A stretch of 33,450 nt of DNA, taken from positions 1 to 33,450 of the forward strand of contig WJMI01000280.1 in NCBI GenBank assembly GCA_014728015.1, read 5' to 3'. This document shows positions 24,386 through 31,324 of the stretch, one piece after another. Every line of letters begins with the position of its first letter. Positions within the stretch are counted from its first letter, which is position 1. Source of the stretch: Chitinivibrionales bacterium. GTDB lineage: Bacteria; Fibrobacterota; Chitinivibrionia; Chitinivibrionales; WJMI01. The notes under the pieces were generated by a model. The model had not been told where the DNA came from. It did no database searches and was given only the letters and a program-made list of their open reading frames with translations. The position numbers and the translations under genes are program-made.

Positions 24386-25203
24386 CGGCGCCTCCCGGAA
24401 GGGCATATGGTGGCCTTCCTGAACCGGCGGACCGCGCGCCCGATTGCCGCAAGCATTGCCCCGGTATGCGCGTGTTCCTTCTCGACAATGCTCACGAGCC
24501 TGCTGCCGACAATGGCCCCGTCGGCGCCGGCATCCCGCACCTCTGCCACGTGCCGGGGTGAGGACAGGCCGAATCCCACGCACAGGGGAAGAGAAGTCAG
24601 CCCGCGCAACCGCCGTATGGTCTGGCGCACCGATGTGCTGAAATCCCTGTGTACGCCCGTAGTGCCCAGACGGCTTACGACATACACGAATGCGCTGGTC
24701 TGCCTGCAGATGAACCGGATGCGTTCGGGCGGGGTCAGCTCCGACACGATAAACACGCTGGCCAGGCCGTGTTTGCGCATCGCCTTGAGAAGGTCGCGCG
24801 ATTCCTCGGGCGGCATATCAGCCACCAGAAGGCTGTCGATGCCCGCATCCGCCGCGGCGGCGCAGAATGCCTCACAGCCCAGGTGATGCATCGTATTTGC
24901 ATAGAGCAGAAGGCCGAACGGCGCATCGGTCGCGGCCCTCAGCCGCCGGATCATGGCGAAAAACCGCGCCGGGGTGATGCCTGATGCGATGGCGCGCTGC
25001 GCCGCCCGCTGATTGACCGGGCCGTCGGCCATGGGATCGGAGAACGGATACCCGATCTCGAGGATATCCGCGCCGGCCGAAAGATACGCCCGCAGGATCT
25101 TTTCGCTCGTCCGCAGGTCCGGGTCGCCGGCCACCGCGAAGGGCACGAACGCGATCCGGTTCTGTTTTCTTACCGCTGAAAAGGCGTTGTCGTACCGGCT
25201 CAT
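24382..25203 (-). CDS. trpA: Tryptophan synthase alpha subunit
   Basis: ATG 25203; [69 protein letters not shown]. Confidence 0.95.
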
Positions 25204-26402
25204 ATCTTCAACCCGGCAGCATCGGCGATGTGGTGGATGTCCTTGTCGCCGCGGCCCGAAAGGTTGAGCACCATGATTGACTTCCTGGGCATCTTCGGCG
25301 CCCGGCGCATGGCGTAGGCAACCGCATGCGCGGATTCGAGCGCGGGAATGATGCCTTCCTTCTCGCACAGCATTTTAAATGCCGCGATGGTCTGCTTGTC
25401 GGTGGCATGCGTATACCGTGCCCGCCCCTGGGTGTGCAGGAGGGCGTGCTCAGGACCTACGCCGCTGTAGTCGAGTCCCGCCGAAATGGAATGGGTCGTG
25501 GCAATCTGCCCGTTTGTATCCTGGAGAATGTACGAATAGTAGCCGTGCAGCACGCCCGTGCGGGACTGCCGCGAGGGTGTCAACCGGACGGCGTGCTTCG
25601 CGGTCCGCAGGCCGAGCCCGCCAGCTTCCACCCCGACGAGCTTCACCGATGTATCCTTGAGAAACGCGCCGAATATGCCAATCGCGTTGGAGCCGCCGCC
25701 CACGCACGCAACGACCTCGTCGGGAAGCCGGCCCGTCTGGCGCAGGACCTGCCGGCGGGTTTCCCGTCCGATGACCGACTGGAAATCACGCACGATGGTC
25801 GGATAGGGATGCGGCCCCAGCGCCGACCCCAGGACATAGTGGGTCGAGCGGACGGTCCGGGTCCAGTCGCGCAGCGCCTCGTTGACCGCATCCTTGAGCG
25901 TCCTGCTTCCGCTGTCAACCGGCAGTACCGTGCATCCCAGAAGGTTCATGCGAAAGACGTTCGGCTGCTGGCGCTCCATGTCGACGGTGCCCATGTAGAC
26001 AGTGCACTTGAGGCCGAGAAGCGCGGCCGCGGTGGCGGTAGCCACGCCGTGCTGTCCCGCGCCGGTCTCGGCGATAATACGTTTCTTGCCCATATGGCGC
26101 GCCAGCAGAGCCTGGCCGAGCGAGTTGGTGATCTTGTGGGCGCCCGTATGGTTCAAGTCTTCGCGCTTCAGATATATCTGCGCGCCCCCCAGGTACCCGG
26201 AGAGGCTTTTGGCGTGATACAGGGGGGTCGGGCGGCCGTTGTAGGTGCGCAACAGATCGCGAAAGGTGCGTTGAAACGCGCGGTCACGCTTGATCGCCGC
26301 ATACGCGTCTTCCAGCTCGTTCAGCGCGGGCATCAGGGTTTCCGGCGCGAAACGGCCGCCGTATTCGCCGAAGTATCCTTTTCGTTTTCGCGATCGCCCC
26401 AT
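25200..26402 (-). CDS. trpB: Tryptophan synthase beta subunit
   Basis: [95 protein letters not shown]. Confidence 0.97.
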
Positions 26403-26414
26403 GAGCCCACGACC

Positions 26415-27371
26415 TCAGTTTACAATGCGGCATAGACGTCCGGCGCGCAGTCCCGACAGGAACCGCCTGCCGGGCGTAAACGACCATGCCACGCAGACTA
26501 CCGCGCCCTTGAACAAATGCCCGCCGACCGGCCCGGTGTAGCGCGAGTCAAAACCGTCGCGCCAGTTGTCGGCAACCAGGAAATAGTATGATTCCTTGAC
26601 ACGGTACGTATCAACCGCGCTCCCGTCGCGTGTGAGCGAGAACCCGAGGGAGACACTGTTGCCGGTCAGTACCGCCGCGAGGTATTCCTCGAGACGGTCC
26701 CAGAAAAACCACTGGTTCGCCAGATGCGCCGGGACCTCCCCGAGCGGACCCTTGTACAGACTGAAATCGCTGATGAAGTAGTCGGCAACAATGCTGTCGT
26801 CAACCTGTATCCACGGCTGGAGAATATACTTCCTCGGGGAATTTTCTTGTTGTATGACAGCCCACAGAAAAATGAAGTCGCGGAGGGTGAGGGTGTCGAG
26901 TGCATAGGTGTCGCCGGGAACCGGGAGGCGGAAGGGATCGATCCAATCGCGGGGCGAGTACCCGGGCGGCAGCACATCGGCGCTGTCCTCCTTGCCCACG
27001 AGCTTTTCGGTGGGTTCGTTGAGTATCGATACGATGCCGTTGCTGATGCTGACGATGTCGCCGGGAATGCCCGCGATGCGGAGGCAGCCGAGGTCGGTAT
27101 CGTTGCGCGGATGCCGGAACACCACCGGCGTCCGGCGCGAGAGACGCACGAACCATTGCAGCGGCGGGGCGCAGGCCGCGCGCGACAGAAGCACCCGGTC
27201 GCCCGGGAGCAGCGCGGGCATCATCTGATCGGTCGTGATCAATACGGTGTCGAACAGGGCCCACTTGACCGCAACGCCGGCCAGTACGGCGATCAGGAGC
27301 AGTTTCACGACACGGTATGCCATGAGCCTGAAGTCAAGCGGCGCGCGCTGCTGAGTGTGCGTGCCGTTCAT
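26415..27371 (-). CDS. Signal peptidase I-family protein, catalytic Ser/Lys apparently substituted
   Basis: N-terminal TM; box B TTDQMMPALLPGDRVLL; box D LGCLRIAGIPGDIVSI; box E FLVADNWRDGFDSRYTGPVGGHLFKG. Confidence 0.78.
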   Translation of the reverse strand: MNGTHTQQRAPLDFRLMAYRVVKLLLIAVLAGVAVKWALFDTVLITTDQMMPALLPGDRVLLSRAACAPPLQWFVRLSRRTPVVFRHPRNDTDLGCLRIAGIPGDIVSISNGIVSILNEPTEKLVGKEDSADVLPPGYSPRDWIDPFRLPVPGDTYALDTLTLRDFIFLWAVIQQENSPRKYILQPWIQVDDSIVADYFISDFSLYKGPLGEVPAHLANQWFFWDRLEEYLAAVLTGNSVSLGFSLTRDGSAVDTYRVKESYYFLVADNWRDGFDSRYTGPVGGHLFKGAVVCVAWSFTPGRRFLSGLRAGRLCRIVN

Positions 27372-27372
27372 G

Positions 27373-29172
27373 CTATTCCCTCGAAAGCACCGCGAGGAAC
27401 GCCTCCTGCGGGATTTCCACGTTGCCTATCTGCTTCATGCGTTTTCTCCCTTCCTTCTGCTTCTCCAGGAGCTTGCGCTTCCGCGTGATATCGCCGCCGT
27501 AGCACTTGGACGTGACATCCTTGCGAAACGGCTTGACCGTGGTCCGCGCGATAACGCGTGTGCCGATAGCCGCTTGAATGGCGACCGGAAACATCTGGCG
27601 CGGAATGCGCTCCTTCAGCTTGGACGTGATCGATTGACCGTACGAGTATGCGGTGTCGCGATGCACGATCGCGGAAAACGCATCGACAGGCGCGCCGTTG
27701 ATAAGCACGTCGATTTTGACCAGATCCTCGTCGGTGTACCCGTCAAACTCGTAATCCATGGATGCATACCCGCGGGAGACACTCTTGAGCCGGTCGAAGA
27801 AATCCACAATCAGCTCTGCCAGCGGTATGCGATACGTGAGGTTGACCCGCGTCTGCTCGAGATATTCCATTGAACCCATCTGGCCGCGCTTTTCCTCGCA
27901 AAGCTTGATGATGGCGCCGACGTGGTCGGCGGGCGTGATAATCTGCACTCTTGCGATGGGCTCGCGAATGGATACGATGCTTTGGGGCGACGGCAGCTTG
28001 GCCGGGGAATCGATGTATACCGCCGTCGTATCTTTTGTTGCAATTTCATACTTGACGTTAGGGACCGTGGTGATAATATCGACGTTGTATTCCCTGAGGA
28101 GGCGTTCCTGCACGACCTCCATGTGCAGCAGGCCGAGAAAACCCGCCCGGAAGCCGAAGCCGAGCGCAGTGGACGTTTCCGGCTCGAAACTGATGGCGGC
28201 ATCGTTGAGCTTCAGCTTGTCGAGTGCCGCGCGCAGGTCCTCATAGTCGGCCTTGTCAATCGGGTACAGGCCGCTGAACACCATGGGCTTCACTTCGACA
28301 TACCCCGCAACCGGCTCGGCGGCGGGGCGGCGACGCGTAGTGACCGTGTCGCCGATCTTGATGTCCGAGAGGTTCCTGATAGTGGCCATCACGTAGCCGA
28401 CCTCACCGGCCCGGAGCAATTCCTCTGGTACGAATCCCAGCCTGAAACAACCGACTTCATCGGTTTCGTATTCGCGGTCGTTGGCGAAGAACCGGATTTC
28501 TTCGTTTTTTCTCAACTCGCCGTCGAACAGGCGCACGTACGCAATCGCGCCGCGGTATGAATCGAATACCGAGTCGAACACGAGCGCCCGCAGCGGCTGT
28601 GACGGATCCCCTCTTGGTGAAGGGATGTCGGTGATAATCCGGTCGAGAACCGCCGCGACACCTTCGCCGGTCTTCGCGCTGCAGTGGATAATGCCCGACG
28701 GGTCCACGCCGAGCAGATCGGCAACCTGGCGGCCGACTTCCTGAGGGTGGGCCGACGGCAGATCAATCTTGTTCAGGACCGGGATTATCGCGAGATCGTG
28801 CTCAAGCGCGAGATAGATATTGGTCAGCGTCTGGGCCTCGATCCCCTGCGTGGCATCCACTACCACCACCGCGCCTTCACACGCAGCAAGAGAGCGCGAA
28901 ACCTCATACGTGAAATCGACATGGCCGGGCGTGTCGATGAGATTCAACGTGTAGCGGCCCCCTCCGGGAGCAGCATACTCCATCCGGACAGGATGCGATT
29001 TGATCGTGATCCCGCGCTCCCGCTCCAGATCCATGTTGTCCAGGATCTGCTCCATCATCCTGTCCTTGCTTACCGTGTCGGTCAGCTCCAGAAGCCGGTC
29101 GGCAAGCGTGGACTTACCATGATCGATATGGGCGATTATGCAGAAATTACGGATATTATCTCTGTAGTCCAC
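27373..29172 (-). CDS. lepA: Elongation factor 4 (LepA)
   Basis: [61 protein letters not shown]-terminal [40 protein letters not shown]. Confidence 0.98.
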
Positions 29173-29458: not shown

Positions 29459-31324
29459 ATGACGCATATCAAGCCTGCGGCCTGCCTGTTCTTCCTGCTC
29501 GTTCTCACGGTCCCGTCACGACCCGATATCGTCTACCTGAACGTGGGGGATGCATTTCAGGACTCGGTGGATGCCTATCCCGAAGGGACCCATTTTGTGA
29601 TCAGGTCGGGCGTGCACCGCATGCAGGAAGTGGACCCCAAGTCATACGATATATTTGCCGGCGAAGACGGCGCGGTGATGAACGGCGCGCGCCTTCTGAC
29701 AGACTGGGTCGATGAAGGTTCGTACTGGTCGCATGCGGGCCAGACCCAGGAAGGGGCGCCGGTGGGAAACTGCAGGGATGACCGCCCGATGTGCCTGTAT
29801 CCGGAAGACATGTTCATGGATGATGATTTCATGGTCCGTGTCGGATCCCTGGGCGATCTGGGCGCGGGCAGGTGGTACTTTGATTACGATGCCGACAAAG
29901 TATATATCGCGGACAATCCCTCGGGGCACACGCTTGAAGTGAGCGCGGCCGGGCATGCGTTCAAGGGAACGGCCTATGGCGTGACGGTGCGCAATCTGGT
30001 GATTGAGAAGTACGGGCAGGCCGCCCAGTGGCCGGCCCTCCTGCGTACGCATCAGCCCGAGGGCGAGGAAGAAGACAGCAGCCGGATCGATGACGGCTGG
30101 ATAATTATGGGCAACGAAATCCACCACAACCATGCCGTGGGCATCAAGGTTTTCGGGCTTCGCAACTATGTTATCAAGGACAACTATGTGCACCACAACG
30201 GCCACCTCGGGGTGAGTATCGTGGATGGTGACAACGGACTGGTCGAAGGCAACGAGATTTCGGAGAACGTTGTTGATGCCGTGGGCATCCGGGTCGCCGA
30301 GGAAGGCGGAACCAAGTTTGTGCGAACGAAGAACCTTGTTCTGCGCAGTAACTGGTGTCATCACAATCACGGGGCCGGTATCTGGGCAGATATCGAAAAT
30401 ATCAATGTGATCTGGGAAGGCAATCTGGTGGAGAACAATGGTTCCCAGGGGATTTTCCAGGAGATCGGCGGCTCGGCTGAGATATTCTGCAACGTTTCCC
30501 GGATGAACGGGACCCAATGGAGCGGATGGCTGTACGGCGGGCAGATCCTGGTTTCGCACTCCTCCGATGTCGAGATTCATCACAACGTGCTGGAGATATC
30601 CGCCACGGGTTCGGACAACAGCGGCGGCAACGGTATCACCATGGTGTATCAACCCGATGATGAGGGCAGGCTTCCGCTGCGCCCGAGCCGCAATTACATC
30701 CATCACAACCATATCACGCACAAGGGCACCCGCGGATCGACCGGTTTGGGCGCGGCGTGGAATGACAGCGTCGATCCCGCGTTGATAGACCAATACTTCG
30801 ATCCCGACAGCAACACCTTTGACTACAACCACTATCATGTGCCTGATTTGAGCAGGGGATATATCCACTGGAGATACGGGGACAGATGGCTGGGAAACCT
30901 GGACAGGTTCCAGGGTATCGGCCAGGAGGCCAATGGTACTGCGGATACCGATATCGACACGCGTCAATCCTTTGGCCAATGCGAAGATGCCCTGGCTGCG
31001 GTGCCTTCAGCCGGTGAGGCCGGACAGAAAGACATAGATCCAACCGCCGTCGCGCCGGAACAGGTCAGGACACCAACCAGTGCCGCGCGACCTTTCACAC
31101 GATACAATGCGGTCAGCGGATTGCTTTCGGCCTGGGCCGGCGGCATGTCTTCGGCGTTCGCCGTTTCGGTGCATGATGCGCGCGGCAGGCAGATGCAGGT
31201 CAGGCGGGGAATGGGCCTGAACCGCGTGGACATCGACCTGGGCAGGTTTGGCGCGGGCATCTACCTGGTCACGGTCACTACCGAAAGCGCGCGCGCCGCG
31301 CGAACGGTGAATGTTCTTCGCTAG
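29459..31324 (+). CDS. Secreted right-handed parallel beta-helix protein with T9SS type A-like C-terminal domain
   Basis: SD AAGGGGGG; signal peptide MTHIKPAACLFFLLVLTVPSRPD; repeated N.I..N/HHN coils (IHHNHAVGIKVFG, DNYVHHNGHLGVSI, SNWCHHNHGAGIW, IHHNHITHKG); C-terminus VHDARGRQMQ...VDIDLGRFGAGIYLVTVTTESARAARTVNVLR. Confidence 0.8.
   Translation: MTHIKPAACLFFLLVLTVPSRPDIVYLNVGDAFQDSVDAYPEGTHFVIRSGVHRMQEVDPKSYDIFAGEDGAVMNGARLLTDWVDEGSYWSHAGQTQEGAPVGNCRDDRPMCLYPEDMFMDDDFMVRVGSLGDLGAGRWYFDYDADKVYIADNPSGHTLEVSAAGHAFKGTAYGVTVRNLVIEKYGQAAQWPALLRTHQPEGEEEDSSRIDDGWIIMGNEIHHNHAVGIKVFGLRNYVIKDNYVHHNGHLGVSIVDGDNGLVEGNEISENVVDAVGIRVAEEGGTKFVRTKNLVLRSNWCHHNHGAGIWADIENINVIWEGNLVENNGSQGIFQEIGGSAEIFCNVSRMNGTQWSGWLYGGQILVSHSSDVEIHHNVLEISATGSDNSGGNGITMVYQPDDEGRLPLRPSRNYIHHNHITHKGTRGSTGLGAAWNDSVDPALIDQYFDPDSNTFDYNHYHVPDLSRGYIHWRYGDRWLGNLDRFQGIGQEANGTADTDIDTRQSFGQCEDALAAVPSAGEAGQKDIDPTAVAPEQVRTPTSAARPFTRYNAVSGLLSAWAGGMSSAFAVSVHDARGRQMQVRRGMGLNRVDIDLGRFGAGIYLVTVTTESARAARTVNVLR

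Follow-up and report, generated by a model that had tools for sequence, protein, structure and literature searches.

Many bacteria have a signal peptidase gene next to lepA; in Escherichia coli, the gene for LepB adjoins it. Homologues of signal peptidase I (SPase I) without a working active site are already known from Gram-positive bacteria, so that the kind as such is not new. SipA of Streptococcus pyogenes (PDB entry 4n31) has no peptidase activity, is essential for pilus polymerisation and has been proposed to hold its client; mutants at its former catalytic dyad and cleft are still functional (PMC4049620). SpsA of Staphylococcus aureus is a second SPase homologue, lacking the catalytic residues, in a genome that has an active one; it is dispensable and has no defined function (PMC12445088). 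Here, we describe a catalytically dead SPase I (family S26) paralogue of 318 amino acids, encoded directly after lepA in a Chitinivibrionales bacterium of the phylum Fibrobacterota. The window (the whole stretch of DNA that was analysed, 33,450 nucleotides, contig WJMI01000280.1) is one contig (C214) of a 4.2-Mb draft genome that is 94% complete. The reading frame occupies positions 26415–27371 of the reverse strand, starting with an ATG at 27371 and containing no internal stop; the TAG stop codon of lepA ends at 27373, leaving a gap of 1 nucleotide, just as a preliminary description made from the sequence had stated.

Residue equivalences were taken from a profile alignment to E. coli LepB (PDB entries 1t7d, 1kn9 and 9nlo). 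In this alignment, Gln49 (codon CAG, positions 27225–27227, reverse strand) occupies the position of the catalytic Ser90 and Leu97 (codon CTC, 27081–27083, reverse strand) that of the general base Lys145; both replacements, claimed in the preliminary description, are borne out. Ser278, which supports the lysine, is replaced by Gly273, so none of the three residues that mark an active SPase (Ser90, Lys145 and Ser278) is present. Boxes B to E are found in their usual order, as had also been claimed. Box E (A267-D-N-W-R-D-G-F-D-S-R-Y278, positions 26538–26573, reverse strand) had been called kept, which holds for Asp268, Asp275, Ser276 and Arg277, the equivalents of E. coli Asp273, Asp280, Ser281 and Arg282; it does not hold for Ser278, nor for Gly272 and Arg275, which have become Ala267 and Trp270. 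The catalytic network has been lost, resembling what has been described for SipA, where the dyad has been replaced by Asp and Gly and the equivalents of Ser278 and Gly272 are also changed. From these replacements, the protein is predicted to be unable to cleave signal peptides.

The protein is nevertheless a recognisable member of the family that includes LepB, SipS and SpsB (MEROPS S26A). It is matched by Pfam PF10502 with 62.6 bits (cut-off 22.9) and by the NCBIfam signal peptidase I model TIGR02227 with 69.3 bits, above the curated cut-off of 47; automatic annotation would therefore name the dead copy as an active enzyme, and a lepA neighbour cannot be assumed to be one. SipA matches it with a sequence E-value of 1.9e-11.

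An AlphaFold2 model, built with 27 orthologues, has a mean predicted local distance difference test (pLDDT) score of 86.7 and a predicted template modelling (pTM) score of 0.82. The chain starts with a hydrophobic helix (residues 14–39, positions 27255–27332, reverse strand), which is predicted to anchor the protein in the membrane; the SPase I beta domain comes next, along with a large domain II. Foldseek matches with E-values below 0.01 are to signal peptidases only (E. coli LepB, SpsB, SipA and an Enterococcus homologue). The match to E. coli LepB (E-value 2.6e-10) identifies the SPase I fold, although the global TM-scores to LepB are modest (0.46–0.54 by target), a probable consequence of differences in domain II and in how it is placed. 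For SipA, the fold E-value is 2.6e-5 and the TM-score by target 0.70. The window protein thus shares with SipA an SPase I fold in which the Ser/Lys dyad has been replaced; SipA belongs to streptococcal pilus clusters and has a small domain II, while the present protein has a large one, is not encoded in a sortase-pilus cluster and has been kept vertically beside lepA over a Gram-negative phylum.

Full-length orthologues, roughly 32–44% identical, are present in 27 further genomes of the order, so that a conserved inactive paralogue, which the preliminary description had proposed to look for in relatives, does exist. Gln is found at the Ser90 position in 27 of the 28 proteins (Leu in the other), Leu at the Lys145 position in 26 (Tyr and Met in the others), and the Ser278 position is occupied by Gly in 21 and by Ala in seven. 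The reading frames are intact, and the ratio of non-synonymous to synonymous substitution rates (dN/dS) is 0.15–0.30 for six pairs of the order and 0.12–0.15 for two pairs of Fibrobacteraceae; these are simple Nei-Gojobori counts, with some pairs near saturation at synonymous sites. The active copies discussed below give 0.04–0.21, near the range of the dead ones. A maintained protein is indicated, neither a sequencing error nor a decaying gene. That the gene is a pseudogene left at lepA after the active gene moved would fit its faster evolution (mean identity of 36%, against 57% for the active copy, over the same 14 genomes) and its loss from several lineages, but this explanation is contradicted by the selection signal, the almost invariant Gln49 and the columns conserved only in dead copies, and can hardly be right.

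These columns show where a new constraint has arisen. While positions around the active site and cleft that are fixed in the active enzyme have become freer to vary in dead copies, others are invariant or nearly so in dead copies only: Phe203, Gly208, Pro214, Phe223 and Trp224 in domain II, Ser139 and Asp142, and Asp13, Lys36 and Asp41 near the membrane helix. The domain II motif W221-F-F-W-x-R-L-x-x-Y-L231 (positions 26679–26711, reverse strand) is likewise conserved mainly in dead copies. Since the cutting residues have been lost and selection retained, the protein probably binds or scaffolds rather than cuts, and the constraint on domain II (S139-P-x-D142, F203, G208, P214, W221-F-F-W224-x-R) and on Asp13, Lys36 and Asp41 points to a function by binding there. 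The gene product is thus, we think probably, a non-catalytic, membrane-anchored adaptor or scaffold facing the periplasm, kept over much of the Fibrobacterota. Its clients would be exported proteins or part of the export machinery, held most likely through domain II and the membrane-proximal part; the former signal-peptide cleft might also take part, as proposed for SipA. The positions of the cleft residues Phe84, Ile86 and Ile144 of E. coli are mostly hydrophobic in dead copies (Val/Ile/Leu, Val/Ile and Cys/Leu/Ile, respectively), and in the window protein Val43 and Ile45 are hydrophobic.

One other S26 signal peptidase gene is present in the genome, on contig C273. It encodes a protein of 407 amino acids (PTGSM...DYIKR...GDNRDNSMDSR) with the Ser, the Lys and Ser278 in place, and answers the proposal of the preliminary description to look for an additional active lepB. 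Across the sampled Fibrobacterota, all 31 LepB copies not linked to lepA keep these three residues, and an active copy accompanies the dead one in nearly all genomes that have the latter (a few of the drafts are incomplete). Judging by the conserved residues, the unlinked intact gene, not the lepA neighbour, probably does the signal-peptide cutting. The situation resembles that of SpsA, a dead homologue accompanying an active enzyme in the same genome; spsA lies beside the active spsB, while here the active gene is unlinked. Separately, four genomes of the order encode extra short S26 proteins (L102–L107, about 150–300 amino acids) with both Ser and Lys present, a further signal-peptidase-like lineage.

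The co-occurrence of the two copies bears on the main rival to an adaptor role, namely that the dead protein is the non-catalytic subunit of a heteromeric signal peptidase, in which it would join the cell's active LepB and alter its substrate choice or activity. The retained fold, membrane helix and part of the box E scaffold, together with the newly conserved domain II columns, would fit such a pairing. However, the active copy persists with an unchanged dyad in lineages that lost the dead one, indicating that the active enzyme needs no partner; we regard a heteromer as unlikely. A more specific version would have a signal peptidase made from two genes, with the dead copy beside lepA regulating the unlinked active LepB or selecting its substrates, as a bacterial equivalent of the signal peptidase complex of eukaryotes with its several subunits; this is rather more doubtful.

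The lepA neighbours were also read in further families; lettered families and genera carry no taxonomic names, and family f8 is Fibrobacteraceae by inference. An S26 protein directly after lepA is also found in 16 Fibrobacteraceae genomes from six genera and in one genome each of families f9, f10 and f13. At the Ser and Lys positions, respectively, f9 has Val and Leu, f10 Gly and Lys, and f13 Ala and Gly; in Fibrobacteraceae, the Ser position holds Ser (14 of 16) or Ala and the Lys position always Arg (16 of 16). Not one of the 47 copies at, or assigned to, the lepA locus keeps both dyad residues, against 31 of 31 unlinked copies, which supports the earlier proposal that a non-catalytic copy occupies this locus. 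Among the 47, 45 adjoin lepA, 43 of them codirectionally; for L037 and L059, lepA lies outside the stretch analysed. The two of the 45 that are not codirectional, L052 and L056, come from genus g5; here, the dead copy is close to lepA but oppositely oriented, suggesting that the operon was broken while the gene was kept. In a tree built without the catalytic columns, all unlinked active copies form one clade (support 99/99) and the dead copies of the order another (100/99). Support for a group of all lepA-linked copies is low (80/49); a single origin of the dead lineage is accordingly likely but unproven.

The variety of replacements is relevant to whether these proteins might still be hydrolases with a rebuilt active site, using another nucleophile or base, such as Ser with Arg in Fibrobacteraceae. 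Ser139, Asp142, Arg164 and Asp165 are invariant or nearly so and could be enlisted for this, as could the Ser retained in most Fibrobacteraceae copies. But the segment containing Ser139 is also matched in the alignment by a Tyr-Ser of E. coli LepB that belongs to none of the boxes, and the replacements vary by lineage (Gln/Leu, Val/Leu, Gly/Lys, Ala/Gly, Ser/Arg), a pattern not expected of a new mechanism common to all. The preliminary description had named another Ser/Lys pair as something to check; none is conserved. Among lysines, only Lys36, at the end of the membrane helix, is shared by 85% or more of the dead copies, and an alternative Ser/Lys dyad was rejected on this ground. A rebuilt hydrolase is thus improbable. 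In nearly all Fibrobacteraceae copies (L064–L073, L108–L110, L152, L154 and L155), Cys is found at both the Gly272 and Ser278 positions, for example in CEKGSNC (C-x5-C); by sequence, this pair would be compatible with a disulfide bridging the old active site.

Several observations weigh against the adaptor or scaffold role favoured here. The cleft of the dead copy shows more sequence variation than that of the active enzyme, so its ability to bind peptides cannot be taken for granted, and in SipA a cleft-blocking mutation was without effect (PMC4049620). Three candidate partners were considered and, because their distribution is unrelated to that of the dead copy, rejected as correlates: SprA, the translocon of the type IX secretion system (T9SS), T9SS cargo tails and the type IV prepilin peptidase PilD. 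The gene is also evolutionarily dispensable: it is not found beside lepA in sampled members of f7 (most genomes), f11, f12 and f14 or in genera g10 and g22, with some contigs ending too soon to tell. In genomes that lack the gene, searches around lepA for what might be left of it revealed no convincing trace, the tblastn matches having E-values of 0.02–1 only. Within the order, absence is most simply explained by loss, because in one such genome lepA and trpB are separated by no more than a 0.3-kb spacer. A strongly degenerate S26-like protein of family f7 (L062, on G018:C86), not beside lepA and with boxes B and D no longer recognisable, may be all that remains of the dead lineage in that family.

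In comparison with active SPase I, the window protein retains the fold, the N-terminal helix, the order of boxes B to E and the D280-S281-R282 motif, and differs in the five replaced active-site and box E residues and in the new domain II motif. In the open-access literature searched, we found no report of the position beside lepA, retention across a phylum, several different dead states or a conserved domain II for a dead homologue, and the Fibrobacterota genome papers searched do not mention an inactive signal peptidase. The homologue described here is ancient and has been kept vertically through a large part of a Gram-negative phylum whose members degrade cellulose and chitin. Its lineages, with their different substitutions, form a natural set of dead enzymes from which to learn what the SPase fold does without cutting.

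On the reverse strand of the window, the dead copy is flanked upstream by lepA (EF4, positions 27373–29172), identified by its LepA_C and GTP_EFTU domains, and downstream by trpB (positions 25200–26402); the gene order lepA, dead copy, trpB, which prevails among the orthologues from this taxonomic order, occurs at 17 loci, including this one. Beyond lepA, positions 29459–31324 of the forward strand encode a protein of 621 amino acids that begins with a signal-like sequence and has a body that is repetitive and beta-helix-like. By eye, its carboxy-terminus resembles a T9SS sorting tail, and the genome contains 50 matches to the T9SS tail family.
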